DNA from: Chitinophaga pinensis
Lineage (GTDB): Bacteria; Bacteroidota; Bacteroidia; NS11-12g; UBA955
DNA length: 48,218 nt
Direction: 5' to 3'
Assembly (NCBI GenBank): GCA_945888525.1
Contig: CAMDAF010000015.1
Coordinates: 1-48,218 of the forward strand
Shown here: positions 5,726 through 41,730 of the stretch, in pieces
Layout: each line of letters starts with the position of its first letter
How positions within the stretch are numbered: the stretch's first letter is position 1
Translations under genes and position numbers: made by a program
Notes under the pieces: generated by a model
Told to the model about the DNA's origin: nothing
The model's database searches: none
The model's input: only the letters and a program-made list of their open reading frames with translations

Positions 5726-8700
5726 ATGAAAAGAAATTTAACAAAAATGATTGGACTCTTGCTCTGTTTAATTACGAGCAAAGCGTCCGAGGCACAAATT
5801 AGTTTATTGCAGGACTACTCTAACAAGGTTTCTGCAACTATTGGCACTTTCCAAGGAATTAATTTCCGTGAAAGTGGATTCTCAGGTATGTATCCAATTC
5901 CTAATACCAACGGTAAAGAGTTTTGGGTAATATCAGACAGAGGCGTTAACGTAGATGCGGCATCAGCCAATCCGTCTACTTGCCGTCCTACTTACGACAA
6001 GATTTATGGATTCGCGAACTATGTACCAAAAATACATAGAGTACGTGTTTCTGGTGACTCAGTTCAAATTTTACAAACCATCACCATGAAGCGTCCAAAC
6101 GGAACAGGTGCTTCAGGATTGTTGAATCCAACAGGTTTTGGTAGCACTGCCGCAGAACTTATATCTACTGATACAGTTTTGAATTGCGCTAATTTTAACA
6201 AAAAAACAGTCGCAAAAGATGTTTGGGGTATTGACGCTGAAGGTTTAGTCGTTGATAAAGACGGAAACTTTTGGATATGTGAAGAAGGTGGTCCAACCAT
6301 TTGGAAATTAAATCCAAATGGCGTTGTCTTAAAAAGATACACACCTTATGCAAACTTATTTGGGGCTCAACCTGAGGATGTATTAATTGACTCATGTTTT
6401 AAATACCGTAAAAACAACAGAGGTTTTGAAGGTATTGCTTTGGCCCCGAATGGTAAAATATATGCAATTATTCAAAGTCCAATTTTATATCCAAACAAAA
6501 CAGTTGGAGAAGGCACTAGAGTGCATAGAATATTAGAAATCGATCCAGCTACAAACGCACAAAGAATGATCGTTTATTTAAACGATGGTATTATCGGTGC
6601 TTCTGGTTCTAACCAAATTCGTTTGCGCGATTGGAAAATCGGCGACATGGCTGCCATTAATGACAGCACATTTTTAGTTCTTGAAGCTGCACTTAGAGGC
6701 ACAACTGATATTAAAAAAGTATACACCATCAATATCAATGGCGCTACTTCTGTTAATTCTGGATTATACAGTGGTGTAACTCTAGAAGCTTTAGTAGATT
6801 CTTCAGGTTTAGCAAACAACAGCATCAAACCAGTTAAGAAAAAATTATTCATGAACTTATTGTCTAATTCATGGCCTGCAATTTTAGAAAAGGCTGAAGG
6901 ATTAGCAATTATCAATGATAGTACCATCGCAATTTGCAATGACAATGATTATGGCCAAATGGCATCTCTTCCAGACAATGGCATAGCGATGGCAACAGGT
7001 ATTACAGGTCACGTTTTTGTATACAGCCTAAAAGGTATTAACAAATTAAAAGATTACAAAGCACCTAAAACAGTTTTGGTTCCTGGTATCACAGGTTCAA
7101 ACTCATCACAATCTCCATATATATTGCCATTAACTCCAGGTGCATCGTTTACTTCATTGTTAACTGCAGGAGATGCAATTGGTTCATACAAAATGGCTGG
7201 TTTGGGTGACGGTATGGGTGCATACGACAATGGAAATGGTACATTTACAATGTTGTTGGCACACGAAGCTGGAAGCACAGCAGGTGTTGTTCGTGCACAT
7301 GGTAATACAGGTGCATTTGTATCTAAATGGATCATCAACAAATCAAACTTATCAATTGTAGGTGGTTCAGATTTAATTAAAGATATGTACTTATGGAACG
7401 GAACTGGCTACACCAAATACAATGCAGGAAGTCCGGCACCAATAGGGTTTGGACGTTTTTGTTCAGCAGATCTACCAGCGGTATCAGCATTCTATAATGC
7501 AGCTACAGGCCTAGGAACTCAAGAACGTATATTCATGAATGGTGAAGAAATCGGTAGTGAAGGAAGAGGATTCGCTCACATAGCAACTGGTGCAAACGCT
7601 GGTTCAACTTATGAATTGCCATACTTAGGTAAATTCTCATGGGAAAATGCAGTAGCAAGTCCAGTTTCTAGCAACAAAACAATTGTAGCTGGAACAGACG
7701 ATGCAACTCCAGGTCAAGTTTACTTCTATGTAGGAACAAAAACCAATACTGGTAACGAAATCAGCAAAGCAGGTTTAAGCAATGGTAAATTATATGGTGT
7801 TGCGGTAGCAGGTTTAACACTTGAATCAAGTTCAAGCATCCCAGCTGCTAACACTACCTTTACATTGGTTGATTTAGGTCAAGTTCAAAACACGACAGGT
7901 GCTGCATTAAACACAGCAAGTAATATTGCAGGTGTAACCAATTTCTTAAGACCAGAAGATGGTGCATTTGATCCAAGTAATCCAAGAGATTTCTATTTTG
8001 TTACGACAAATTCATTTACAAGTCCAAGCAGAATGTGGAGATTGCGTTTTACAGATCCTGCAAATCCAGAATTGGGTGGAACAATCACAGCTGTACTAGA
8101 CGGAACAGAAGGACCAAAAATGATGGACAACATAAGCATCGACAATTATGGTCATATCTTAATTCAAGAAGATCCAGGATTCCAAACATATTTGGCTAGA
8201 ATCTGGGAGTATACAATTGCTACTGATGTTGTTGTTGCAACAGCTGAGCATGATGCTACAAGATTCTCATTGGGTGGTTCAAACTACTTAACACAAGACG
8301 AAGAGTCATCAGGAATCATAGATGTTCAAGGTATCTTAGGTGCAGGAATGTTCTTATTATACGATCAAGCGCACTATGCAGTAGCAGGTGAGCAAATGGA
8401 AGGTGGTCAATTATTGTCTTATTTCAATCCAGAGACTTTCAAATCTAATCCTGAAATTGCTTTGTCAGGCAACAGCATTAATATAGTAGATGGTGATTTA
8501 TTGCCTTCAGCTACAGACAATACCGATTTTGGTAGATTGGCTGGTGCTCAAACTAAAACGTTCACAATTAGCAATGCTGGACCAGGTACTCTTACCATTT
8601 CAGACATTCAATTTAAAGGTTTAAATTTATCAGATTTTTCATTGGTAAACCCTCCAGTGTTTCCTTTGAATTTGTTAGCCAATAACAACCAAACAATAAC

Positions 8701-10834
8701 CGTTAAATTTTCTCCAAATGCTGGTGGATTAAGAACAGCAACTTTAAATATTTTAAGCAATGACTTTGACGAATCAGTTTTTGATATTGCATTACAAGCT
8801 ACAGTTATCGCTCCTGGCATGACAGGTTTAAGCTCATCACAATCTCCATATTTATTGCCATTAACTCCAGGCGCATCGTTCACATCGTTGTTAACCGCAG
8901 GAGATGTAATTGGTTCATATAAAATGGCTGGTTTGGGCGACGGTATGGGTGCATACGACAATGGAAATGGTACATTTACAATGTTGTTGGCACACGAAGC
9001 TGGAAGCACAGCAGGTGTTGTTCGTGCACATGGCAACACAGGTGCATTTGTTTCTAAATGGGTTATCAACAAATCAAACTTATCAATGGTAAGTGGTTCA
9101 GATTTAATTAAAGATGTATACTTATGGAACGGAACAACATATACCAAATACAATGCAGGAAGTCCAGCAGCATCAGGTTTTGGACGTTTTTGTTCAGCAG
9201 ATCTACCAGCAGTATCAGCATTCTACAATGCAGCTACAGGCTTAGGAACTCAAGAGCGTATATTCATGAATGGTGAAGAATCAGGTAGTGAAGGTAGAGC
9301 ATTTGCTCATATTTCAACTGGTGCAAACGCGGGTTCTACTTACGAATTGCCATACTTAGGTAAATTCTCATGGGAAAATTCAGTAGCAAGTCCAGTTTCT
9401 AGCAACAAAACAGTTGTAGTTGGAACAGACGATGCTACTCCAGGTCAAGTTTATTTCTATATTGGAACAAAAACCAACACTGGTAATGATATAGAAAAAG
9501 CAGGTTTAAGCAATGGTAAATTATATGGTGTTGCGGTAGCGGGTTTAACACTTGAGTCAAGTTCAAGTGTTCCAGCAGCTAACACTACATTTACTTTAGT
9601 TGATTTAGGTCAAGTTCAAAACACAACAGGTGCTGCATTAAACACAGCAAGTAACACTGCAGGTGTAACCAATTTCTTAAGACCAGAAGATGGTGCTTGG
9701 GATCCTAGCAATCCAAAAGATTTCTATTTTGTTACAACCAACTCATTTACAAGTCCAAGCAGAATGTGGAGATTGCGTTTTACAGATCCTGCAAATCCAG
9801 AATTGGGTGGAACAATCACAGCGGTATTAGACGGAACAGAAGGACCAAAAATGATGGACAACATAAGCATCGACAATTATGGTCATATCTTAATTCAAGA
9901 AGATCCAGGATTCCAAACATATTTGGCTAGAATCTGGGAATATACAATTGCTACTGATGTTGTTGTTGCAACAGGTGAGCATGATGCTACAAGATTCTCT
10001 GCAGGAGGATCAAACTTCTTAACCCAAGACGAAGAGTCATCAGGAATTATTGATGTTCAAGGAATCTTAGGTGCAGGTATGTTCTTATTATACGATCAAG
10101 CGCACTATGCAGTTGCAGGTGAGCAAATGGAAGGTGGTCAATTATTGGCTTACTACAACCCAGAGACCTTCAAATCTAGTCCTGAAATTACCATCAGTGG
10201 TAACGACGAAGAAATAAAGAATGGCGATAAATATCCAGTAAACTACGACAATACTGATTTTGGTACTGTGGTTAAAGGAAGCAATCTTGTTAAAACTTTT
10301 GAAATCAAAAACAATGCAGTTGGAACTTTGAAAATTACTGGTATCAGTATTTCAGGTGTAAATGCATCAGAATTTGTATTAGAAGGATTGCCAACATTCC
10401 CATTAACGATTGCTTCTGGTTCAGTTCAAACAATCACTGTTAGATTCACTCCAAACAGTGCTGGCTTGAAAACTGCAGTAATGAATGTTGTAAGCAATGA
10501 CTTTGATGAGGCTGCATACAGCTTTAACATCCAAGGTTTAGCTAGTCTTTCAACTTCAATTGATCAATTGGCTAATGAGAATGGCGTTAAGTTGTATCCT
10601 AATCCAAGCAATTCAGCAGCTGAATTAAGTATGGAAATCAAAGAAGCTGGTTCAGTGTCAGTTAAGGTTTTCAACGTAAATGGCCAAGAAGTAATGGAAG
10701 GATTTGAGCAAACACTTGAGTCAGGCAAACAATCAATTAAAATGAACACAGCAAACTTAAACGCAGGTGTTTATTTAGTTGAAGTAAGCATAAACGGAAG
10801 TATCAGTCGTTTGAAAATGACTGTAATGCATTAA
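5726..10834 (+). CDS. Secreted esterase-like phytase / tandem PhoX-like protein with T9SS type A sorting domain
   Basis: A 1702-residue exoprotein. Residues 1-24 are a signal peptide (ending KASEAQ). Residues about 40-440 form an esterase-like phytase beta-propeller (GINFRESGFSGMYPIPNTNG, FWVISDRGVN, DAEGLVVDKDGNFWICEEGG, NRGFEGIALAPNGKIYAI, EKAEGLAIINDSTIAICNDN). Two PhoX/DUF839-like units follow with a period of 577 residues (about 453-1029 and 1030-1606). Each has LGDGMGAYDNGNGTFTMLLA, HEAGSTAGVVRAHGNTGAF, GEE.GSEGR, YLGKFSWEN, LRPEDGA, MMDNISIDNYGHILIQEDPG, and then an ASH/choice-of-anchor-D Ig-like module (FTISNAGPGTLTISDIQ, ILSNDFDE). Residues about 1620-1702 are a type A sorting domain (KLYPNPSNS, VKVFNVNGQEV, LNAGVYLVEV). 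The likely role is phosphate release from organic phosphate at the cell surface. Substrate is not shown by sequence alone. Confidence 0.82.
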   Translation: MKRNLTKMIGLLLCLITSKASEAQISLLQDYSNKVSATIGTFQGINFRESGFSGMYPIPNTNGKEFWVISDRGVNVDAASANPSTCRPTYDKIYGFANYVPKIHRVRVSGDSVQILQTITMKRPNGTGASGLLNPTGFGSTAAELISTDTVLNCANFNKKTVAKDVWGIDAEGLVVDKDGNFWICEEGGPTIWKLNPNGVVLKRYTPYANLFGAQPEDVLIDSCFKYRKNNRGFEGIALAPNGKIYAIIQSPILYPNKTVGEGTRVHRILEIDPATNAQRMIVYLNDGIIGASGSNQIRLRDWKIGDMAAINDSTFLVLEAALRGTTDIKKVYTININGATSVNSGLYSGVTLEALVDSSGLANNSIKPVKKKLFMNLLSNSWPAILEKAEGLAIINDSTIAICNDNDYGQMASLPDNGIAMATGITGHVFVYSLKGINKLKDYKAPKTVLVPGITGSNSSQSPYILPLTPGASFTSLLTAGDAIGSYKMAGLGDGMGAYDNGNGTFTMLLAHEAGSTAGVVRAHGNTGAFVSKWIINKSNLSIVGGSDLIKDMYLWNGTGYTKYNAGSPAPIGFGRFCSADLPAVSAFYNAATGLGTQERIFMNGEEIGSEGRGFAHIATGANAGSTYELPYLGKFSWENAVASPVSSNKTIVAGTDDATPGQVYFYVGTKTNTGNEISKAGLSNGKLYGVAVAGLTLESSSSIPAANTTFTLVDLGQVQNTTGAALNTASNIAGVTNFLRPEDGAFDPSNPRDFYFVTTNSFTSPSRMWRLRFTDPANPELGGTITAVLDGTEGPKMMDNISIDNYGHILIQEDPGFQTYLARIWEYTIATDVVVATAEHDATRFSLGGSNYLTQDEESSGIIDVQGILGAGMFLLYDQAHYAVAGEQMEGGQLLSYFNPETFKSNPEIALSGNSINIVDGDLLPSATDNTDFGRLAGAQTKTFTISNAGPGTLTISDIQFKGLNLSDFSLVNPPVFPLNLLANNNQTITVKFSPNAGGLRTATLNILSNDFDESVFDIALQATVIAPGMTGLSSSQSPYLLPLTPGASFTSLLTAGDVIGSYKMAGLGDGMGAYDNGNGTFTMLLAHEAGSTAGVVRAHGNTGAFVSKWVINKSNLSMVSGSDLIKDVYLWNGTTYTKYNAGSPAASGFGRFCSADLPAVSAFYNAATGLGTQERIFMNGEESGSEGRAFAHISTGANAGSTYELPYLGKFSWENSVASPVSSNKTVVVGTDDATPGQVYFYIGTKTNTGNDIEKAGLSNGKLYGVAVAGLTLESSSSVPAANTTFTLVDLGQVQNTTGAALNTASNTAGVTNFLRPEDGAWDPSNPKDFYFVTTNSFTSPSRMWRLRFTDPANPELGGTITAVLDGTEGPKMMDNISIDNYGHILIQEDPGFQTYLARIWEYTIATDVVVATGEHDATRFSAGGSNFLTQDEESSGIIDVQGILGAGMFLLYDQAHYAVAGEQMEGGQLLAYYNPETFKSSPEITISGNDEEIKNGDKYPVNYDNTDFGTVVKGSNLVKTFEIKNNAVGTLKITGISISGVNASEFVLEGLPTFPLTIASGSVQTITVRFTPNSAGLKTAVMNVVSNDFDEAAYSFNIQGLASLSTSIDQLANENGVKLYPNPSNSAAELSMEIKEAGSVSVKVFNVNGQEVMEGFEQTLESGKQSIKMNTANLNAGVYLVEVSINGSISRLKMTVMH
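7085..10546 (+). repeat. Two-copy in-frame tandem repeat, period 1731 bp, within the phosphatase-like gene
   Basis: Copy A is about 7085-8815 and copy B about 8816-10546. The anchor CTCATCACAATCTCCATAT sits at 7102 and again at 8833, exactly 1731 bp (577 codons) apart. Protein identity is very high over the PhoX-like part and clearly lower over the ASH module that ends each copy. DNA identity is patchy: 8097-8208 and 9828-9939 are identical by eye over 112 bp, while other parts differ at many third positions. Confidence 0.9.
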
Positions 10835-34231: not shown

Positions 34232-34702
34232 ATGGACTTCGAAAGCTATTCGCAATTAATAGAATCAACATTTGCCTTTCTAGGCTTAAATCCTATGGAA
34301 ACAAGGGCTGCAGAAAAAGGTCAATGGATAATTTACAATGGCGACACTGAAATTTACATCGATTTATGGGAAGTAGAAAAAGAAAATGCTTGGTTGTATT
34401 TCGAATCTGATGAACCAGTATTTGCATTTCAAGTGGTTTCTCCAGTGTGTTTATTGCCAGAAAATGGACATGAACAGCTGTATGAAGAATTGCTTCACAA
34501 CAATTTAAACATGTTGTATGCTTCTTATATTATTAACAAGGATCAAAATATGTTGGCGGTTAAATTTAGACGACCAGCAAAGGGTTTGACGCAAGAAGAG
34601 ATTATAGAATCTATAGAGAGTATTGGTTTTTATTCCGAGTCAACTTATAAGGCATTGGAAGACCGTTACACGATTGGTAAAATAGTTCCCGAAGAAAATT
34701 AA
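34232..34702 (+). CDS. YbjN domain-containing protein
   Basis: 156 residues, acidic, without signal peptide or membrane helix. The fold has alternating short strands and two long helices (QLIESTFAFLGLNPM; YEELLHNNLNMLYASYIIN; QEEIIESIESIGFYSESTY), with IYNGDTEIYIDLWE and MLAVKFRRPAKGL in between. This matches the YbjN / type III secretion chaperone-like superfamily. Family members bind or stabilise partner proteins; the partner here is unknown. It is divergent from sucD and about 78 bp upstream of the ECF sigma factor. Confidence 0.7.
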   Translation: MDFESYSQLIESTFAFLGLNPMETRAAEKGQWIIYNGDTEIYIDLWEVEKENAWLYFESDEPVFAFQVVSPVCLLPENGHEQLYEELLHNNLNMLYASYIINKDQNMLAVKFRRPAKGLTQEEIIESIESIGFYSESTYKALEDRYTIGKIVPEEN

Positions 34703-34716
34703 AAAAAATTAGATCC

Positions 34717-34736
34717 TCAGGCAACCTATAGCCTGA
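34717..34736. repeat. Short hairpin between the YbjN-like and sigma-factor genes
   Basis: TCAGGC (34717-34722) pairs with GCCTGA (34731-34736) around an 8-nt loop. No T-run follows, so termination is doubtful. It could attenuate or separate the two genes. Confidence 0.35.
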
Positions 34737-34779
34737 AAAATTCTTCTAAAGGTAAATTGAATTGTAATTCAAGGTGTAA

Positions 34780-35328
34780 ATGGCAGACAATCATACAGAT
34801 AAACTAAATACCATTTTAGCAGAATGTATTGATAATCAGCCAAAAGCGCAAAAACAGTTATTTGATTTACTAGCTCCAAAAATGTATAGCGTTTGTTTGC
34901 GTTATGCGAAGGATGAAGATGAAGCGAAAGATATTTTGCAAGAAAGTTTCATAAAAGTTTTTAAAAACTTAACGAAATTTGAGCACAAAGGGTCTTTTGA
35001 GGGATGGGTAAAAAGAATTTTTATCAATACCAGCATCGAGTTCTACCGCAAAAATCAAAAACAAAACATCGTTGACAGTATTGATGACGTTGCAGAACGA
35101 CCAATTGACAGCCATACCATTTCAATATTAAAGACAGCAGATTTAATGAAATTGGTAAACAGATTGCCAAATGGGTACCGCACAGTTTTCAATTTATTTG
35201 CTATTGAAGGTTATTCTCATGATGAAATTTCAAAACTCTTGAATATCAGTGAGAATACGAGTAAAAGTCAATTGCATAAAGCGCGCATACATTTGCAAGA
35301 GTGGGTATTAAAAGGAAATTTAAAGTGA
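34780..35328 (+). CDS. ECF-type RNA polymerase sigma factor
   Basis: 182 residues. Region 2 covers about 25-90 (LFDLLAPKMYSVCLRYAKDE, DEAKDILQESFIKVFKNLTK, GSFEGWVKRIFINTSIEFYR). Region 4 covers about 125-175 (LVNRLPNGYRTVFNLFAIEG, SHDEISKLLNISENTSKSQL). There are no regions 1 or 3, as in all ECF factors. It likely directs RNA polymerase to a small regulon that may include the two genes downstream. It overlaps the next gene, whose N-terminus looks like an anti-sigma partner, by four bases when the GTG at 35325 is used. Confidence 0.93.
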   Translation: MADNHTDKLNTILAECIDNQPKAQKQLFDLLAPKMYSVCLRYAKDEDEAKDILQESFIKVFKNLTKFEHKGSFEGWVKRIFINTSIEFYRKNQKQNIVDSIDDVAERPIDSHTISILKTADLMKLVNRLPNGYRTVFNLFAIEGYSHDEISKLLNISENTSKSQLHKARIHLQEWVLKGNLK

Positions 35329-36194
35329 AAGTAAACAACACGAACGAAGAATTATTTGATGGTCTTTTTAAACAAGACCTAGGAAACGCGAGTTCTCCTG
35401 TGCCAACGGGTGCTTGGGAAGGCATTTCGAGTTCATTAAGCTCAAGTGCCAGCGTTGCCGGAGTTGCAGTAAAAACTGCACTATGGATGAAGGCAGCTAT
35501 AAGTGCTGCAGTCATTGTCGGTGTGTCTGTCGCAGCATATCAATACAACGTTAGCACTGAACAAAAAATAGCTTTGCTAAATCAAGACGTAATTTCTAAT
35601 GCAGATTCAAAAAATGAGCAAGCAAGTGGGATTATGTCGAATTCTGATTTGAATTTAAAAAATCAAAACGATCAGCCTAAGATTGAATCTATCAAATTAA
35701 TTGATCCTGTGCAGCTTGAAGAGTATCCTGACCAAGTTCAGGCCCGCTTTGATGATTTTGATATTGATTTGCCTCAAGCAGCAGAAGATTATGTTGCTAA
35801 AGGCATTCAAGAAACAAGAGAAGGCAAGCCGGAAACAAATAATGACGGGTTAGATAATTTGGTTGTGGAAGAGCCTCAAGCAGTATTTTTAATCGATCCG
35901 TCAATTAAAGACACTTCTTACATTGAAGTTCCCGATGCGTTTACCAATGATGGCGACGGCATTAACGATACCTATCTTATCAAATTGATAGGAGAAGAAA
36001 GGGTTGAAATAATCATATATACCGCTGAAAATCAGATAATTTTTAGAACCAAAAACAAATATGCAGCTTGGGATAGCCGCATGCCAAATGGTGATTTGGC
36101 ACCTGAAGGTTTTTATTTTGTAAAGGTTATCTATAAATACAAAAACAAGATAGAATCAAGTCCAATTATCCGACGAATTACTTTAATCAGATAA
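35325..36194 (+). CDS. Membrane anti-sigma-like protein with T9SS type B-like C-terminal domain
   Basis: 289 residues from GTG 35325 (MKVNNTNEELFDGLFKQDLG); an in-frame GTG at 35301 is possible but lies deeper in the sigma gene. The N-terminal cytoplasmic part (1-45) has the anti-sigma-like pattern ELFDGLFKQDL ... P-x-G-A-W-E-G-I. One membrane helix lies at about 49-72 (WMKAAISAAVIVGVSVAAYQ). An acidic linker follows. The end (about 205-289) is a gliding-motility-associated domain: VPDAFTNDGDGINDTYLIKL, VEIIIYTAENQIIFRTKN, AAWDSRMPNGDLAPEGFYFV, PIIRRITLIR. The overlap with the sigma gene supports a sigma/anti-sigma pair. Function is inferred; the sorting-like domain would face the periplasm. 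Confidence 0.75.
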   Translation: MKVNNTNEELFDGLFKQDLGNASSPVPTGAWEGISSSLSSSASVAGVAVKTALWMKAAISAAVIVGVSVAAYQYNVSTEQKIALLNQDVISNADSKNEQASGIMSNSDLNLKNQNDQPKIESIKLIDPVQLEEYPDQVQARFDDFDIDLPQAAEDYVAKGIQETREGKPETNNDGLDNLVVEEPQAVFLIDPSIKDTSYIEVPDAFTNDGDGINDTYLIKLIGEERVEIIIYTAENQIIFRTKNKYAAWDSRMPNGDLAPEGFYFVKVIYKYKNKIESSPIIRRITLIR

Positions 36195-36225
36195 AAATTT
36201 GGAAAATTAAAAAAATGAATATAAT

Positions 36226-39200
36226 ATGCAATCTCAAATTAATATGAATATCAAGCAAAATATAATCCGTCTGACAAGGGCTTGGGGCTTAGTGCTCACA
36301 ATGCTTCTGACGTATTCTTATGCGAATGCGCAGTGTAGCTTTACTGCTTCATCTCCAGCCTGTATTGGAGAACCAATCCTTTTTAACTGTAATTCGCCTG
36401 GGGCGAGCAATATGGTTTGGGATTTTGATGGCATCGGAAGCAACAACACATCACTTACTCCAACTTTTGTGTTTAACACAGCTGGAAATAAGGTAATCAA
36501 ACTCACCTTAAAGTTGGCGAACGGCAGCAACTGTTCATATACTTTAAATGTTGTAGTTAATCCAAAACCCAAGGTAGATGTAAAATTGATTGTGAAGCAA
36601 ACCCAATGTTTTGCCAACAACAGTTTTTGTTTTACAGATAGCAGCAAATCAATGGCGTCTGGTGGCACCATTTGTAGCACCACAGTGGTATTTGACGATG
36701 GTACAAAATACACCTTCGGTGGCAATGGCCCTAGAAGTTTTTGTCATTCATTTCAAGATCCTGCGGGTGGTACTTACGGTATGACCGTTGAGGTTATAGA
36801 TTGCAATGGTTGTATAACAAAAACCAGATACAATGCAGTTGCTATTGTTCAGCCTTCATTGGGCTTGAACTTCACATCACCACAACCTAAACGTTGTGAC
36901 AGTGTGCAATTGTGTGTTACCAATAAATCTACAGTTCCTTTAGACAGTATCCAATCTTTCTCATGGGATTGGGGTGATGGCAAAATAGACAATGGAAACA
37001 AAAATACCAACAACCTTTGGAGAGCCAATATTCCAAACGGAATTTGCCATTGGTTTAAGTCTCAAGGTCCAAACGGTGGTAACTTTAATACTGTTTTAAC
37101 AGTTACAACCAATTTTGGATGTACAGAAAAATTTAAGTTTGTGGCATCCGCTACCAACTTAATTGTTAAGCCTGTAATTATCGCTGACTTCGACTCCTTG
37201 TGTGTCAACGATGCAACTTTTAGCTTTAAGTTGAAAGATGGACCAATCCCACAAGCAGCCAATCCTTTGTATATTTATGAGTTGCCACCTATTCCAGCGA
37301 ACCTCACTAGGAATTGGACTGGTACCCATAAATTTGGAGGTTTAGGACCATATCAAGTAACATTCTCTTTTACACACAGTATTCCTGGTTGTGGAAGAAC
37401 AGTATATGATACCATCCTAGTTATAGGACCACTATCTATTATTGAGGGATCAGTTGCCTCAGGCATGCGTTTCTTAGAAGACACACAAAGATACCAATGT
37501 GTTATTAAAGACACTGTTCACTTCTATAACTTCTCTAAATTCTACCACAACGACTACAATAAGGTAGACGACGACTCACTTGTTTTGATTTATGACAGTG
37601 GTATTGTGAACAAAATTACACGCGTATTGTTGCCGTCAAATACAACATTTGACCCGTCAATACACGAACGTATCTACCCAGGATTTAACCGTCCTTTGGT
37701 TCACTCCTTTATTAAAGGCAAGCCAGGATCTCCAGATGGGCCGCCGCCAGTATTAAAAAGAGCGAATCAAAAAAGAGGTAACGAGTGTACCACGAGATTA
37801 TGGGATTTTGATGATGACTATTGTGAAAAATGTACAACAGATACAAAATACGGAATCAACGTAGGTAAAAACTGTAAGTACAGCAAAGATTCATTGCCGT
37901 CGCACTGGTATACGCCTTGGGATTCATTGTACCAAACCCGTTTTGGTTTAACATCTGAGAGCGTGTTGAACTACAGCTCTGACTCGGGCTTGTGTTACCA
38001 AAAGAAAATGTGGGCTGACGATTCAGTAGCAATTATCAGAGACACTTTCTTATTCTACGGTAACAATGCCTTAGCAAATAAAACAAAAGACTCCAGTATT
38101 TTCTCAAGCATTACCAATAAAACAATGGTTGCTACGCAAATATCTGGACCGGCTCAAATAGACATGACCACTGCGACCAAGTTTTACTTGCAAGCAGGTG
38201 ACACCGTTTATATAGACTTTAAAAATGGTCTTCCACCAAATCGATTTGTTGGACCTCGTTACCTTACGGTGCAGCCAGGAAATACTTTGGTTATTAAAAA
38301 TAGTACAGATAAGGCGCTTTATAATGTTTGGGTCATTTATACCCAAGATACGATTCCTTTGTTTATGGTAAAAGGTTACCATAACGTATGGAAAAAAGAA
38401 AGAATTCAAGGCTATAATCTTGGAGACAGTGTTAATGCTGCTGCCCACAGACAAAAATTCTACGCTGGAACTACAGTTAAGTGTTTCAATGTTAGATTGA
38501 ACCACAAAGACTTCTGTCACCCATTGGCTTGCGAACACGAAGCGATTGCTCAACTTGCTTTGCAACCACCTAGTGCTAAAAAACTAAGAAAAATTGGTAC
38601 CCAATGTTTGGGAGGTGACCAAGACAATTATGGTTTAACATTTATTTTAGATGATACCAAGCCAGGCTGCATGCGCACTTGGGCTGAAATCAACTTCGAT
38701 ACAGCTTTAAACAAAACCAAATGGGAAGCCTTGGTTGGTGCAAACTTAACTCCAGGAGCTGTTTCAATGGGTGGTTTGCCTCCAATTAATCCTCCTTACC
38801 AAGTTCCAACTCCAGGTTATCAAATTAATGGTCCTGCAGGAAATAGATTCTCTAAACAATTTACTGTAGATGATATCAAAGATACCATCACTGGTTATAT
38901 CAATGTTGGTTTATTGGTAGGAAATGGCATGTGGCCAACCAGCGGAGCTAATTATCCATCTAATTGCGTAGATACCCAATACTACCCTAAGTTTGCCCGT
39001 TTCCCTATATTGGATAACCGTTTCAGAATTGTTAAACCAAAAGAGGGAGAAGAGTTTACTAAAATTTGTAAACGCGACACTTTAAGCATGACTACTTTGG
39101 CTTGGAACAGAACTTATGTTCCTGACGTAGAAGAAGCAACTTGGAGCTTAGAAGGTCCGAACGTTGGCAAATACTATAACACCTATTACAGATTAGCTGT

Positions 39201-41730
39201 AACTGAACGTTACAAAAGATTCGCTCGTTTGAAAGGTGACAAAACAAAGCTAAATGACTCAACCATTTTAGAAGACAGATTGGAAATTGTTAAAACATCT
39301 TCATTTGGTGGTAAAACAAAAACCACTGACTCTGTTGAGTTTAGAACTGCTAAGGTATTAAAATGGCATACTGAGGCTGATATCACCCCGGTATTTGACA
39401 TCATTAAATTGATTTTACAGGCCAATAAAATTGACATCTATGAATTGTCTCCAGCTCAATTGAACCAATTAATTTGGAATGGTCTTGGTACCTTCGGAAA
39501 GCCTTTTACAGGATCTAGAGGTTGTTTAGACACCACTGGTTTTGGTCGATTTATCAGATTCTATAAAGTAGCAGACAAAAAAGATTCAATGCACTTTAGA
39601 GATTCTACCTTATTGCCAATTGATAAGATCAAAGGTTGGGATGGCAAAATTTACAATGCCTACAGCTTCGTTCCTCAATATTCAGGTTATTATGGCGCTA
39701 ACTTTGGCTTAAGAAGCAATGCACCTGAAAACTGTACCAAGAAATTGGGTACATTGAAAAAAGTTCTTGTAGGTTTCTATGGCGTAATGAATTACACCGA
39801 TACAATTTTGTGCCATGGTCAGTCAGTTACTGCTCAGCCACAATTTAGATACTTTAACGTATACCCAGAACTGAACGTTATTTGTAATATAACAGGTAAT
39901 TCCTTGCTCGATTGTGTTGACTATTGGAGAAACCGTATTTCTGAGGCAGGCAACATAAATAGAGAAGGTTACACAAGACATGACTTAAACAAACGCGATG
40001 ATGGTACTGACCCTAAATCTACTTTTGGTGGTTTCCCTTGGTCTGTTACCGGATTAGATAATGCGCCTGGTCAAACCTTGATTTTAGGTGGTGGAACAGG
40101 TAGCAAATACTACAACCAAGATACAGGTTTATCTTACTTAATCAGAACTGCCGCTTCAGACAGTTTAGGTTGTAAAGACACCATCCCTCAAAAAATCTAT
40201 GTTACTGCTTTAAGAGCTAATTTCAGATTAGACCAAACACGTCCTCAGTGTAACACCATCGTCGAGTTGTTTGACTCTTCATACATACAAGATCCTTGTA
40301 TTGCTGAATTGGGTTCTCCTTGCGATAGAATTATCAAATGGACTGTTGATTGGGGCGATAAAAACAAAAACTCTATCAACTCGTTCTTTAATAATCTGCC
40401 AGGTAAGATAGGTCACGATTACACCAAGAACGGATACTTCTGGATTAAATGGAGAGTTGAAACCGAATTGGGTTGTGTGGCTTTTGATTCTGCAAGAATT
40501 TACATTCCAGGTCCGGTTCCTGAGTACGATCGATTTATGCCAACCAAGTATTGCGTAGGTGAGAAAGTTGTTTTCTCTAACTTAAGTAAACACATGAGAG
40601 CAGATAGCAGCATCTGGATTTGGGAATTTGGCGATAACGTAGTAGCATCTCAAAGAGATACCATTACCAAAGCCAATGACACAACTTACCATAAATACGC
40701 TGCTCCTGGTAGATACTACATTAAGTTGACACAGTTCTACCAATTGAAGATTGGTGGCTCAACCAAAAACTGTTATGTATCTTACCCTGATACCACCAAT
40801 GGTGATACCATGTTCTTTATTGATATCTATGCTTATGATACCACAAAAGTATTGGCTAAACCAATGAAGGTCTGCTTGGGTGATACCATAACATTTACAG
40901 GTAATGTTAAACCTTTAGGTCGCTACACGTCTTATGTATGGAACTTCGGTATAACAAGCACTGATACTTCAATCTTAAAAGATACAGTAACCAAGAAAGT
41001 GTATGCTACGCCAGGTAAATATACCGTGAAGTTTATGGGTGACGTAACGTCCGCTCCGACTACTGGTAAGATATGTGCGATGCAAGACAGTGTCATCGTG
41101 GAAGTACAGGGTGTAACTGCCGACTTTGATGTTGACTCTACACGCAAACCTATATTCTGTTTCAACAATACGTCCAAAGCATCCTCAGGTAATGTAATAA
41201 ATAACCGTTGGAGCTTCTACAATCCAGTTGATTTGATGAGTTTGCCAACGGTAGCAAGAGTGTTTATTCCTAATGGTAAAAACACTGGCGACTACAACAA
41301 CCCACAGATCTGCGAAGACTACAGAGATTCACTTGGTGCATACTGGGTATGTCTTGAAGCTGAAAGCGACAATGGATGTAAAGACACCATTTGCAAACGA
41401 ATGTTCAATAACTTCAAAGCAATTGTTCGTCCACCAAACGTATTCACTCCAAACGGTAAGTTTGATGGAAAAGACGATGAAGGATTGGTAGGTAATGAAG
41501 TATTCAATATCTTAATTGAAGGTGAAGACAAATACGATTTGGTAATCTTCGACCGTTGGGGTGTTAAAGTATTTGAGTCTGCGGATAAAACCAACGACTG
41601 GAATGGTAAAGTAAAAAACACTGGCGCTGAATGTCCAGATGGAACTTACTACTACATCTTGAAATACCGTTACAAAGGCATTGATAAAGACGAACCAATA
41701 TTGAATGGTGTCGTTAAAATCATCAGATAA
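36226..41730 (+). CDS. Giant PKD-repeat surface protein with T9SS type B sorting domain
   Basis: 1834 residues. A signal peptide ends at about 36 (LVLTMLLTYSYANAQ); ATG 36244 is an alternative start that shortens it by six residues. The protein is Cys-rich, with PKD-like modules at both ends (MVWDFDGIGSNNTSLTPTFV, FSWDWGDGKIDNGN, WTVDWGDKNKNSINSFFNN, WIWEFGDNVVASQRDT, YVWNFGITSTDTSI) and a long central part of no recognised family. The C-terminus (FTPNGKFDGKDDEGLVGNEV, YDLVIFDRWGVKVFE, NDWNGKVKNTGAECPDGTYY, GVVKIIR) is a full type B domain. It starts 31 bp after the anti-sigma-like gene and ends at a terminator, so the three genes form one unit. It is probably surface-anchored or released adhesin-like material. 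Confidence 0.87.
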   Translation: MQSQINMNIKQNIIRLTRAWGLVLTMLLTYSYANAQCSFTASSPACIGEPILFNCNSPGASNMVWDFDGIGSNNTSLTPTFVFNTAGNKVIKLTLKLANGSNCSYTLNVVVNPKPKVDVKLIVKQTQCFANNSFCFTDSSKSMASGGTICSTTVVFDDGTKYTFGGNGPRSFCHSFQDPAGGTYGMTVEVIDCNGCITKTRYNAVAIVQPSLGLNFTSPQPKRCDSVQLCVTNKSTVPLDSIQSFSWDWGDGKIDNGNKNTNNLWRANIPNGICHWFKSQGPNGGNFNTVLTVTTNFGCTEKFKFVASATNLIVKPVIIADFDSLCVNDATFSFKLKDGPIPQAANPLYIYELPPIPANLTRNWTGTHKFGGLGPYQVTFSFTHSIPGCGRTVYDTILVIGPLSIIEGSVASGMRFLEDTQRYQCVIKDTVHFYNFSKFYHNDYNKVDDDSLVLIYDSGIVNKITRVLLPSNTTFDPSIHERIYPGFNRPLVHSFIKGKPGSPDGPPPVLKRANQKRGNECTTRLWDFDDDYCEKCTTDTKYGINVGKNCKYSKDSLPSHWYTPWDSLYQTRFGLTSESVLNYSSDSGLCYQKKMWADDSVAIIRDTFLFYGNNALANKTKDSSIFSSITNKTMVATQISGPAQIDMTTATKFYLQAGDTVYIDFKNGLPPNRFVGPRYLTVQPGNTLVIKNSTDKALYNVWVIYTQDTIPLFMVKGYHNVWKKERIQGYNLGDSVNAAAHRQKFYAGTTVKCFNVRLNHKDFCHPLACEHEAIAQLALQPPSAKKLRKIGTQCLGGDQDNYGLTFILDDTKPGCMRTWAEINFDTALNKTKWEALVGANLTPGAVSMGGLPPINPPYQVPTPGYQINGPAGNRFSKQFTVDDIKDTITGYINVGLLVGNGMWPTSGANYPSNCVDTQYYPKFARFPILDNRFRIVKPKEGEEFTKICKRDTLSMTTLAWNRTYVPDVEEATWSLEGPNVGKYYNTYYRLAVTERYKRFARLKGDKTKLNDSTILEDRLEIVKTSSFGGKTKTTDSVEFRTAKVLKWHTEADITPVFDIIKLILQANKIDIYELSPAQLNQLIWNGLGTFGKPFTGSRGCLDTTGFGRFIRFYKVADKKDSMHFRDSTLLPIDKIKGWDGKIYNAYSFVPQYSGYYGANFGLRSNAPENCTKKLGTLKKVLVGFYGVMNYTDTILCHGQSVTAQPQFRYFNVYPELNVICNITGNSLLDCVDYWRNRISEAGNINREGYTRHDLNKRDDGTDPKSTFGGFPWSVTGLDNAPGQTLILGGGTGSKYYNQDTGLSYLIRTAASDSLGCKDTIPQKIYVTALRANFRLDQTRPQCNTIVELFDSSYIQDPCIAELGSPCDRIIKWTVDWGDKNKNSINSFFNNLPGKIGHDYTKNGYFWIKWRVETELGCVAFDSARIYIPGPVPEYDRFMPTKYCVGEKVVFSNLSKHMRADSSIWIWEFGDNVVASQRDTITKANDTTYHKYAAPGRYYIKLTQFYQLKIGGSTKNCYVSYPDTTNGDTMFFIDIYAYDTTKVLAKPMKVCLGDTITFTGNVKPLGRYTSYVWNFGITSTDTSILKDTVTKKVYATPGKYTVKFMGDVTSAPTTGKICAMQDSVIVEVQGVTADFDVDSTRKPIFCFNNTSKASSGNVINNRWSFYNPVDLMSLPTVARVFIPNGKNTGDYNNPQICEDYRDSLGAYWVCLEAESDNGCKDTICKRMFNNFKAIVRPPNVFTPNGKFDGKDDEGLVGNEVFNILIEGEDKYDLVIFDRWGVKVFESADKTNDWNGKVKNTGAECPDGTYYYILKYRYKGIDKDEPILNGVVKIIR

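Follow-up and report, generated by a model that had tools for sequence, protein, structure and literature searches.

How Bacteroidota match the synthesis of very large surface proteins to their export by the type IX secretion system (T9SS) is an open question; the activator of PorY, which lies upstream of SigP, for instance, "remains to be determined" (PMC7712824). The question is raised by a stretch of 48,218 nucleotides from Chitinophaga pinensis (contig CAMDAF010000015.1 of the assembly GCA_945888525.1, which holds 2.4 Mb in 63 contigs), hereafter called the window. It contains an operon in which the gene for an extracytoplasmic function (ECF) sigma factor is followed by a gene for a single-pass membrane protein that ends in a CHU_C domain resembling those of T9SS type B substrates, and then by a gene for a T9SS cargo of 1834 residues (Table 1). 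Why should the apparent partner of a sigma factor end in a relative of a sorting domain, next to a cargo that has one itself? The answer that we propose, and that we regard as evenly balanced between right and wrong, is that the middle protein is an anti-sigma factor with the layout of the Dma proteins, that its own outer module is a sorting domain no longer fit for export, and that it signals the state of type B export, with the result that cargo is produced at times when export is possible. The parts of this system, their conservation, the gene order, the promoter pattern, the link to cargo and the loss of one motif can all be read from the sequences.

One of these is the motif loss. The middle protein matches the Pfam family CHU_C above its gathering score (3.9e-9; 36.9 bits against 27), and all 75 complete middle proteins from the same order match it at E <=0.01 (8 of the 75 also match PKD_4). 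The original prediction had seen the full type B pattern in this domain, which turned out to be incorrect: the NRWG motif is missing, the domain reading IIIYTAENQIIF where the cargo reads LVIFDRWGVKVF, the P of TPNGDG is missing as well, and the protein reaches 26.8 bits on the NCBIfam model TIGR04131, below its cut-off of 35 (the cargo, with 32 bits, likewise stays below). For the purpose of comparison, we collected 132 anti-sigma factors with such a C-terminal domain (CTD), 75 from the order and 57 from other families. In columns aligned to a profile, an NRWG-like motif occurs in 2 of these 132 CTD-type members (1/75 and 1/57), as opposed to 58 of the 59 CTDs of operon cargos (26/26 and 32/33), and each anti-sigma set keeps the T, P, D, N, W and Y positions in 84 percent of its members or more. 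A looser NRWG pattern, applied to all proteins in the collection, was found in 10 of 153 anti-sigma factors and in 166 of 171 other proteins; three of the five others that lack it are anti-sigma fragments (L064, L086 and L301), and the remaining two read NLWG. Secretion of SprB in Flavobacterium johnsoniae needs each of five conserved type B motifs (PMC12618676), among which NRWG presumably belongs. Loss of this motif in 130 of 132 members, with the rest kept, is what would be seen in a mimic that is not exported, and it strengthens the idea, put forward in the original prediction, that the domain serves as a decoy. In other words, the anti-sigma domain looks like a sorting domain that is able to dock, but not to leave.

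In alignments, a short N-terminal motif (FDxLFKxxL...PPxGVWExV) precedes a single membrane helix, from which a tether leads to the CHU_C-like domain. Among the 132 CTD-type members, a Kyte-Doolittle peak of at least 1.6 is present in 122, with a second such window in 4; the tether measures 112-294 residues (median 193), and the CHU_C-like domain ends at most 10 residues from the C-terminus in 122. A crude charge test places the N-terminus of the helix inside the cell in 125 of the 132, in line with the topology proposed originally. None of the 132 has a hydrophobic run in its first 40 residues that could suggest a cleavable Sec signal peptide, by a crude run test and not by a dedicated signal-peptide program, and no FecR domain was matched in the middle protein by Pfam at E <=1. 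The AlphaFold model of the middle protein begins with two helices, continues with a disordered tether and ends in a beta-sandwich of high confidence, which starts around residue 199. In a Foldseek search PorZ ranked first, and the sorting domains of NucA, RemA and RemZ from translocon complexes, together with PorU, were among the first 21 rows. Aligned with VIA-align, the CHU_C-like domain gave a Z of 8.8 with PorZ (86 residues aligned, root-mean-square deviation 3.0) and of 8.3 with the NucA domain (73 of 75 aligned, root-mean-square deviation 2.2).

Table 1. Features of the sigma, anti-sigma and cargo operon in the window (aa, residues; pLDDT, predicted local distance difference test)
Feature	Position	Strand	Basis or remark
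ECF-like promoter GGCAACC-N16-CTTCT	34720..34747	+	Ends 32 bases 5' of sigma ATG
ECF sigma factor, 182 aa	34780..35328	+	Pfam Sigma70_r2 2.4e-14, Sigma70_r4_2 2.7e-16; TIGR02937 1.6e-26
Putative anti-sigma factor with CHU_C-like extracytoplasmic domain (middle protein), 289 aa	35325..36194	+	Pfam, alignments; GTGA overlap with sigma gene
Putative cytoplasmic anti-sigma segment, residues 1-38, two predicted helices (7-20, 30-38)	35325..35438	+	Alignment, structure model
Single transmembrane helix, residues ~52-74	35478..35546	+	Kyte-Doolittle peak 1.87 (residues 52-71)
Disordered tether, residues ~75-197	35547..35915	+	Low pLDDT
CHU_C / type B CTD-like domain without NRWG	35916..36191	+	CHU_C 3.9e-9; block-mean pLDDT 87-97 from residue 201; T9SS CTD folds among structure matches
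T9SS cargo, 1834 aa, 49 Cys, PKD domains, C-terminal CHU_C with DRWG motif	36226..41730	+	Pfam, sequence
Cargo type B sorting domain (CHU_C), cargo residues 1736-1815	41431..41670	+	CHU_C 3.2e-15

Two families of the same order retain the operon, the sister family having the same trio. In a search of 70 genomes of the family, 58 loci were fetched for a short or very long CHU_C frame (so that the rate is not unbiased), and 51 of these have the order sigma, middle protein, cargo. Six of the seven exceptions are truncated by a contig end (L064, L075, L080, L086, L088 and L090), and the seventh, L076, is a cargo copy in a genome whose operon sits elsewhere (L146). A further scan covered 72 cargo loci from named genome records, metagenome-assembled genomes (MAGs) or bins. 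The sigma factor and middle protein lie within the three nearest upstream frames in 55 of them, 12 have less than 2,000 bases of upstream sequence, and five differ: L162 and L163 are cargo copies without the pair, L212 has a cargo-like gene upstream, and L177 and L213 have the middle protein, with the sigma factor outside the three upstream frames. Conservation of this kind indicates that the order of the genes is not chance.

The sigma factor has an ECF layout, with Pfam regions 2 and 4 present and no match to region 3 at E <=1. Upstream of it we found the pattern GGCAACC, 15-18 bases, C(T/A)TCT; a relaxed form occurs 5' of the sigma gene in 55 of 78 loci, mostly 57-63 bases before its start, and in none of 75 stretches upstream of the cargo. 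When the sigma-upstream stretches were resampled with a Markov model, 0.3 pattern matches were found on average and 2 at most, against the 55 observed. Considering that the pattern precedes the sigma gene and never the cargo gene, one promoter probably drives sigma factor, anti-sigma factor and cargo together. The three genes are also as originally described, and the operon of sigma factor, middle protein and 1834-residue cargo stands. Its sigma factor, judging by ECF form and by the position of the pattern, appears to use the GGCAACC-type promoter itself. In other families the relaxed pattern was found in 5 of 41 loci, and GCAAC-type variants were seen by eye in many. The host genome has two strict matches, one being the sigma promoter; the other lies antisense within an open reading frame (ORF) and was for that reason taken as chance. 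The most likely start codon of the middle gene is the GTG at 35325, which overlaps the sigma stop codon as GTGA; given this overlap, an upstream GTG at 35301 is probably not the start. In a quick tree, the partner sigma factors separate from three other sigma factors of the genome, although the deep branches lack resolution.

Is the pairing with a type B cargo a peculiarity of this order? At least 15 further families of the class have the CTD-type architecture, and the sigma gene lies directly 5' of 54 of the 57 CTD-type proteins of these other families. We surveyed the next gene on the same strand, taking genes as open frames of at least 90 residues, largest first, by which small genes may be missed. 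Out of 93 loci given, three (L363, L392 and L126) were dropped for lack of an N-terminal match. A blind batch, consisting of L326-L365 and the controls L366-L385, was picked from the match lists before the downstream genes were seen. In this batch, a type B domain was found on the next gene in 17 of 35 assessable CTD-type loci and in none of 20 controls (12 ending in a barrel and 8 short; the two kinds are described below), a difference with a Fisher probability of 1.3e-4, ignoring kinship. This supports the link to T9SS cargo proposed in the original prediction. A later batch gave 14 of 16, drawn mostly from families already positive, and three early loci gave 2 of 3; over all loci, the figures are 33/54 for CTD-type, 0/17 for barrel and 0/15 for short members (0/32 for the controls together). 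The link is present in 9 of 15 families, all nine already within the blind batch: in every locus of f65, f66, f67, f76, f90, f95 and f106, in 4/5 of f75 and in 7/8 of f8. It is present in no locus of f7, f61, f71, f83, f86 and f116, one f86 locus (L332) having a type B gene third downstream. To compare the cargos themselves, we clustered the 33 cargos and eight of the order at E 1e-20 and 40 percent coverage with the last 110 residues removed; they fall into six clusters without detected kinship outside the CTD. Two further arrangements were observed. Genome G114 has two operons of sigma factor, CTD-type anti-sigma factor and type B cargo (L257 and L258), with cargos from different clusters, and all three f71 loci (L326, L336 and L354) have a second, different sigma gene behind that of the CTD-type anti-sigma factor, and then genes of 240-249 and 603-606 residues.

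The cargo of the window matches PKD_4 (8.9e-24) and CHU_C (3.2e-15), and has a mean column identity of 50 percent across 26 sequences. A model of 1190 residues from near its N-terminus is mostly beta (mean pLDDT 69); its top Foldseek matches, with TM-scores near 0.2, are immunoglobulin (Ig)-like filaments, GhpA of Aureispira among them, and no function was read from the model. Being mostly beta, rich in cysteine and PKD-like, the cargo is possibly a surface filament or adhesin. The genome holds a second copy of 1704 residues (L123:1729-6840, contig C50), with neither an adjacent sigma/anti-sigma pair nor the promoter pattern. A phylum search with a cargo profile matched the own genome alone among 395; this first look scored two candidates per genome and is no proof of absence.

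The N-terminus of the anti-sigma factor leads to a wider family. A profile of this segment, built from 37 CTD-type members and a relative in the own genome (L124), matched 61 of 296 genomes of the phylum; rebuilt with members of two more families, it matched 271 of 395 genomes of the class. The proteins found are of three kinds: long ones with a barrel, short ones without a module, and CHU_C-like ones. A C-terminal OMP_b-brl barrel was found at E <=0.01 in all 10 loci scanned of 18 of the long kind (8 above the cut-off). The short kind, of about 250 residues, has neither barrel nor CTD, and its next gene, scanned in 10 of 15 loci, encodes an OMP_b-brl_2 barrel in 7 (E <=0.01; 5 above the cut-off). 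For the short-kind control loci L378-L385 taken by themselves, a small OMP_b-brl_2 barrel gene comes next in 7 of 8 (E <=0.01), as if the barrel of a Dma protein had split off. The CHU_C kind accounts for 55 of 58 loci from searches with the rebuilt profile, a share that is inflated by the making of the profile from such members; among the 30 loci of the first phylum search it is represented by L226 (the window), L231 and L253. In the own genome, the L124 pair shares the N-terminus and has a long C-terminal part without a Pfam match that looks barrel-like by eye, and the L126 pair has a sub-threshold barrel match and no N-terminal profile match. The gene directly downstream of the latter pair encodes a type A-like sorting domain (L126:1879-5389, contig C9; Por_Secre_tail 1.3e-4, below the cut-off). 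In L243, L261 and L263, the N-terminal motif that would hold the sigma factor is repeated 2-4 times in tandem before the membrane helix, as seen by eye. On a tree of the sigma factors the kinds of anti-sigma module are clustered, with 14 changes against 33.7 when shuffled. The N-terminal profile shared with anti-sigma factors that end in a barrel, together with the sigma gene next door, argues for the anti-sigma role claimed in the original prediction.

The long kind has the layout of the Dma anti-sigma factors (PMC13088901), in which the parts come in the same order as in the middle protein: a sigma-binding N-terminus, one helix, a long disordered tether and a module directed to the outer membrane, with an adjacent sigma gene. 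The Dma module is a beta-barrel, whereas here it is a relative of type B sorting domains, often with a T9SS cargo next. The likeness lies in the layout and in the N-terminal family shared with barrel-ending proteins of the class, the Dma1-3 sequences of Bacteroides thetaiotaomicron standing outside the comparison. We can tentatively picture one anti-sigma stem with three links to the outer membrane, namely a fused barrel, a separate barrel encoded by the neighbouring gene, or a sorting domain that possibly docks a PorP/SprF barrel, and with it a class-wide family that senses the T9SS directly, in which a disarmed sorting domain competes with cargo and couples each large cargo to free export capacity. 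This joint picture seems possible rather than probable.

In the mechanism that we propose for the operon, a short cytoplasmic segment would hold the sigma factor, and one membrane helix and a long tether would lead to a C-terminal module directed to the outer membrane. The domain without NRWG keeps the fold and most motifs, and can probably meet type B partners without being exported. In F. johnsoniae, type B CTDs are collected by PorP/SprF barrels, with crosstalk (PMC12618676), and the Porphyromonas gingivalis type B protein PG1035 appears to retain its CTD and binds PorP (PMC9143113); the possible docking partners are PorP/SprF-like barrel shuttles, the SprA translocon, or cargo. Once docked, the protein would reach from one membrane to the other, as a Dma protein does, but by means of a borrowed barrel. 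Real cargo would be a competitor of the anti-sigma domain for this site, and the domain would thereby report spare type B export capacity. The genome has two PorP/SprF matches, on contigs other than that of the operon, against 35 CHU_C matches (32 above the cut-off, the middle protein among them), so that shuttle sites may be scarce. The sigma factor would drive its own operon, cargo included: with free export sites the domain would be docked, the sigma factor released and cargo made, and crowding cargo would displace the domain, so that the sigma factor is held. As a free sigma factor would raise cargo synthesis, the feedback can be negative only with this sign, docked for release and displaced for hold. 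Docking may free the sigma factor by pulling or by proteolysis; in the FoxR system, an outer-membrane partner can alter proteolysis of the anti-sigma factor, although binding protects there (PMC11637429). Sigma binding, the docking partner, the sign of the response and the way in which docking frees the sigma factor are steps that we infer.

Several observations weigh against this export-reporting anti-sigma factor. In 18 of the 35 blind loci the next gene is not a type B cargo, and the link is absent from six of 15 families. A tree test for independent gains, using phylogenetically independent pairs, gave one supported pair and was underpowered. SprA is present in all 50 genomes with the protein, yet also in 380 of 390 genomes of the class, and was dropped as evidence for this near-universal baseline. 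In the small sample of SprA-negative genomes with an N-terminal match (G071, G307 and G299), none of the three loci (L378, L388 and L389) is CTD-type. The barrel-type relatives in the own genome (L124 and L126) lend weak support. The CTD of the anti-sigma factor is barely nearer to that of its own cargo than to others of the genome (101 against 93, 91 and 87, with the comparison domains L001 and L002 left out), which leaves a copying of the one from the other unsupported. The placing of NRWG among the five published motifs is ours, as the text consulted does not print them. Finally, the Ig-like fold is common, and domains of streptococcal proteases score as high as T9SS CTDs (Z up to 9.6), so that the fold alone does not point to the T9SS; structure matches outside the T9SS were not accepted as relatives for this reason.

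Some of these points would suit a different explanation, in which the CHU_C-like domain, once derived from a sorting domain, responds as a general Ig-like sensor to an envelope or cell-wall signal, and the cargo is a co-regulated surface protein whose export goes unsensed. Such a sensor would fit the widespread fold, the loss of the NRWG hallmark, the blind loci without a type B neighbour, and the extra two-Cys or PKD-like region that many members outside the window's genus show before the domain (by eye, among the half of the alignment rows viewed). Considering, however, that the other sorting-domain motifs are conserved near the extreme C-terminus, and that the link to cargo is specific to the CTD module and runs across cargo clusters without detected kinship, we think this explanation unlikely.

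In flagella, the anti-sigma factor FlgM leaves the cell through the machine that it regulates. By analogy, a working T9SS might engage the anti-sigma factor and draw it out, stripping it from the sigma factor and switching on a late cargo gene. The position of the domain at the extreme C-terminus, where a sorting signal would be, its CHU_C match in every complete member of the order, and the frequent inclusion of a T9SS cargo in the sigma operon are all in keeping with this. Export of the protein nevertheless seems improbable, as the membrane helix anchors it, the crude test gives no N-terminal hydrophobic run, and the motif that it has lost is probably one of those that SprB secretion needs (PMC12618676). 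A direct contact between domain and cargo in the periplasm, by which the anti-sigma factor would sense unexported cargo as a check on assembly or quality, is suggested by the adjacent genes and the CHU_C-type domains on both partners, but is also improbable, as the cargo clusters have no detected kinship outside the CTD and the CTD itself would have to be the common ligand.

How does the export-reporting anti-sigma factor compare with other systems? The original prediction knew of no described system with this logic. This holds in that our literature search, outside of which most subscription papers lie, found no paper joining a T9SS domain to an anti-sigma factor; it does not hold for the layout, for which Dma (PMC13088901) and PorA (PMC7712824) are known kin. 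In the PorA - PorXY - SigP pathway of P. gingivalis, a CTD protein feeds into control of T9SS genes by an ECF sigma factor, and the authors suggest feedback from machine activity (PMC7712824). PorA differs in that it is no anti-sigma factor: it is made with a signal peptide, travels to the cell surface and works by way of a two-component system. Going by that paper's count of type B proteins, its CTD is of type A, unlike the type B-like domain here. T9SS type B substrates have a CHU_C / TIGR04131-like domain at the extreme C-terminus (PMC12618676, PMC9143113), which the anti-sigma factor resembles with a CHU_C match above and a TIGR04131 match below the cut-off; it differs from them in being anchored in the membrane, where they have a signal peptide, and in having lost NRWG. 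In FoxR/FoxA cell-surface signalling, an outer-membrane partner likewise controls an inner-membrane anti-sigma factor (PMC11637429); the operon here differs in having no FecR match and no TonB-dependent transducer among its three genes. In Flavobacterium psychrophilum, an ECF sigma/anti-sigma pair is found among the ECF-type SM6 promoters, which serve the T9SS genes GldN and PorU (PMC9723704); the section seen describes no CTD-bearing anti-sigma factor, and the promoter consensus differs, with a CGT box.

Two other features of the window were recorded. In the genus of the window, the sigma promoter is immediately preceded by a YbjN-like gene (34232-34702, Pfam 2.2e-5); lookalike genes, judged by eye, hold this position in the sister family, but most other genera of the family have none there. 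At 5726-10834, a protein of 1702 residues combines a phytase-like esterase, PhoX and a type A T9SS sorting domain, and its gene adjoins that of a di-haem cytochrome c peroxidase.

For the matching of surface-protein synthesis to export, a gene family with a visible mimic of a sorting domain on an anti-sigma factor would provide a direct and testable sensor. In addition, the consistent loss of a single motif is a natural experiment, which may separate the parts of the type B domain that drive export from those that serve for docking only.

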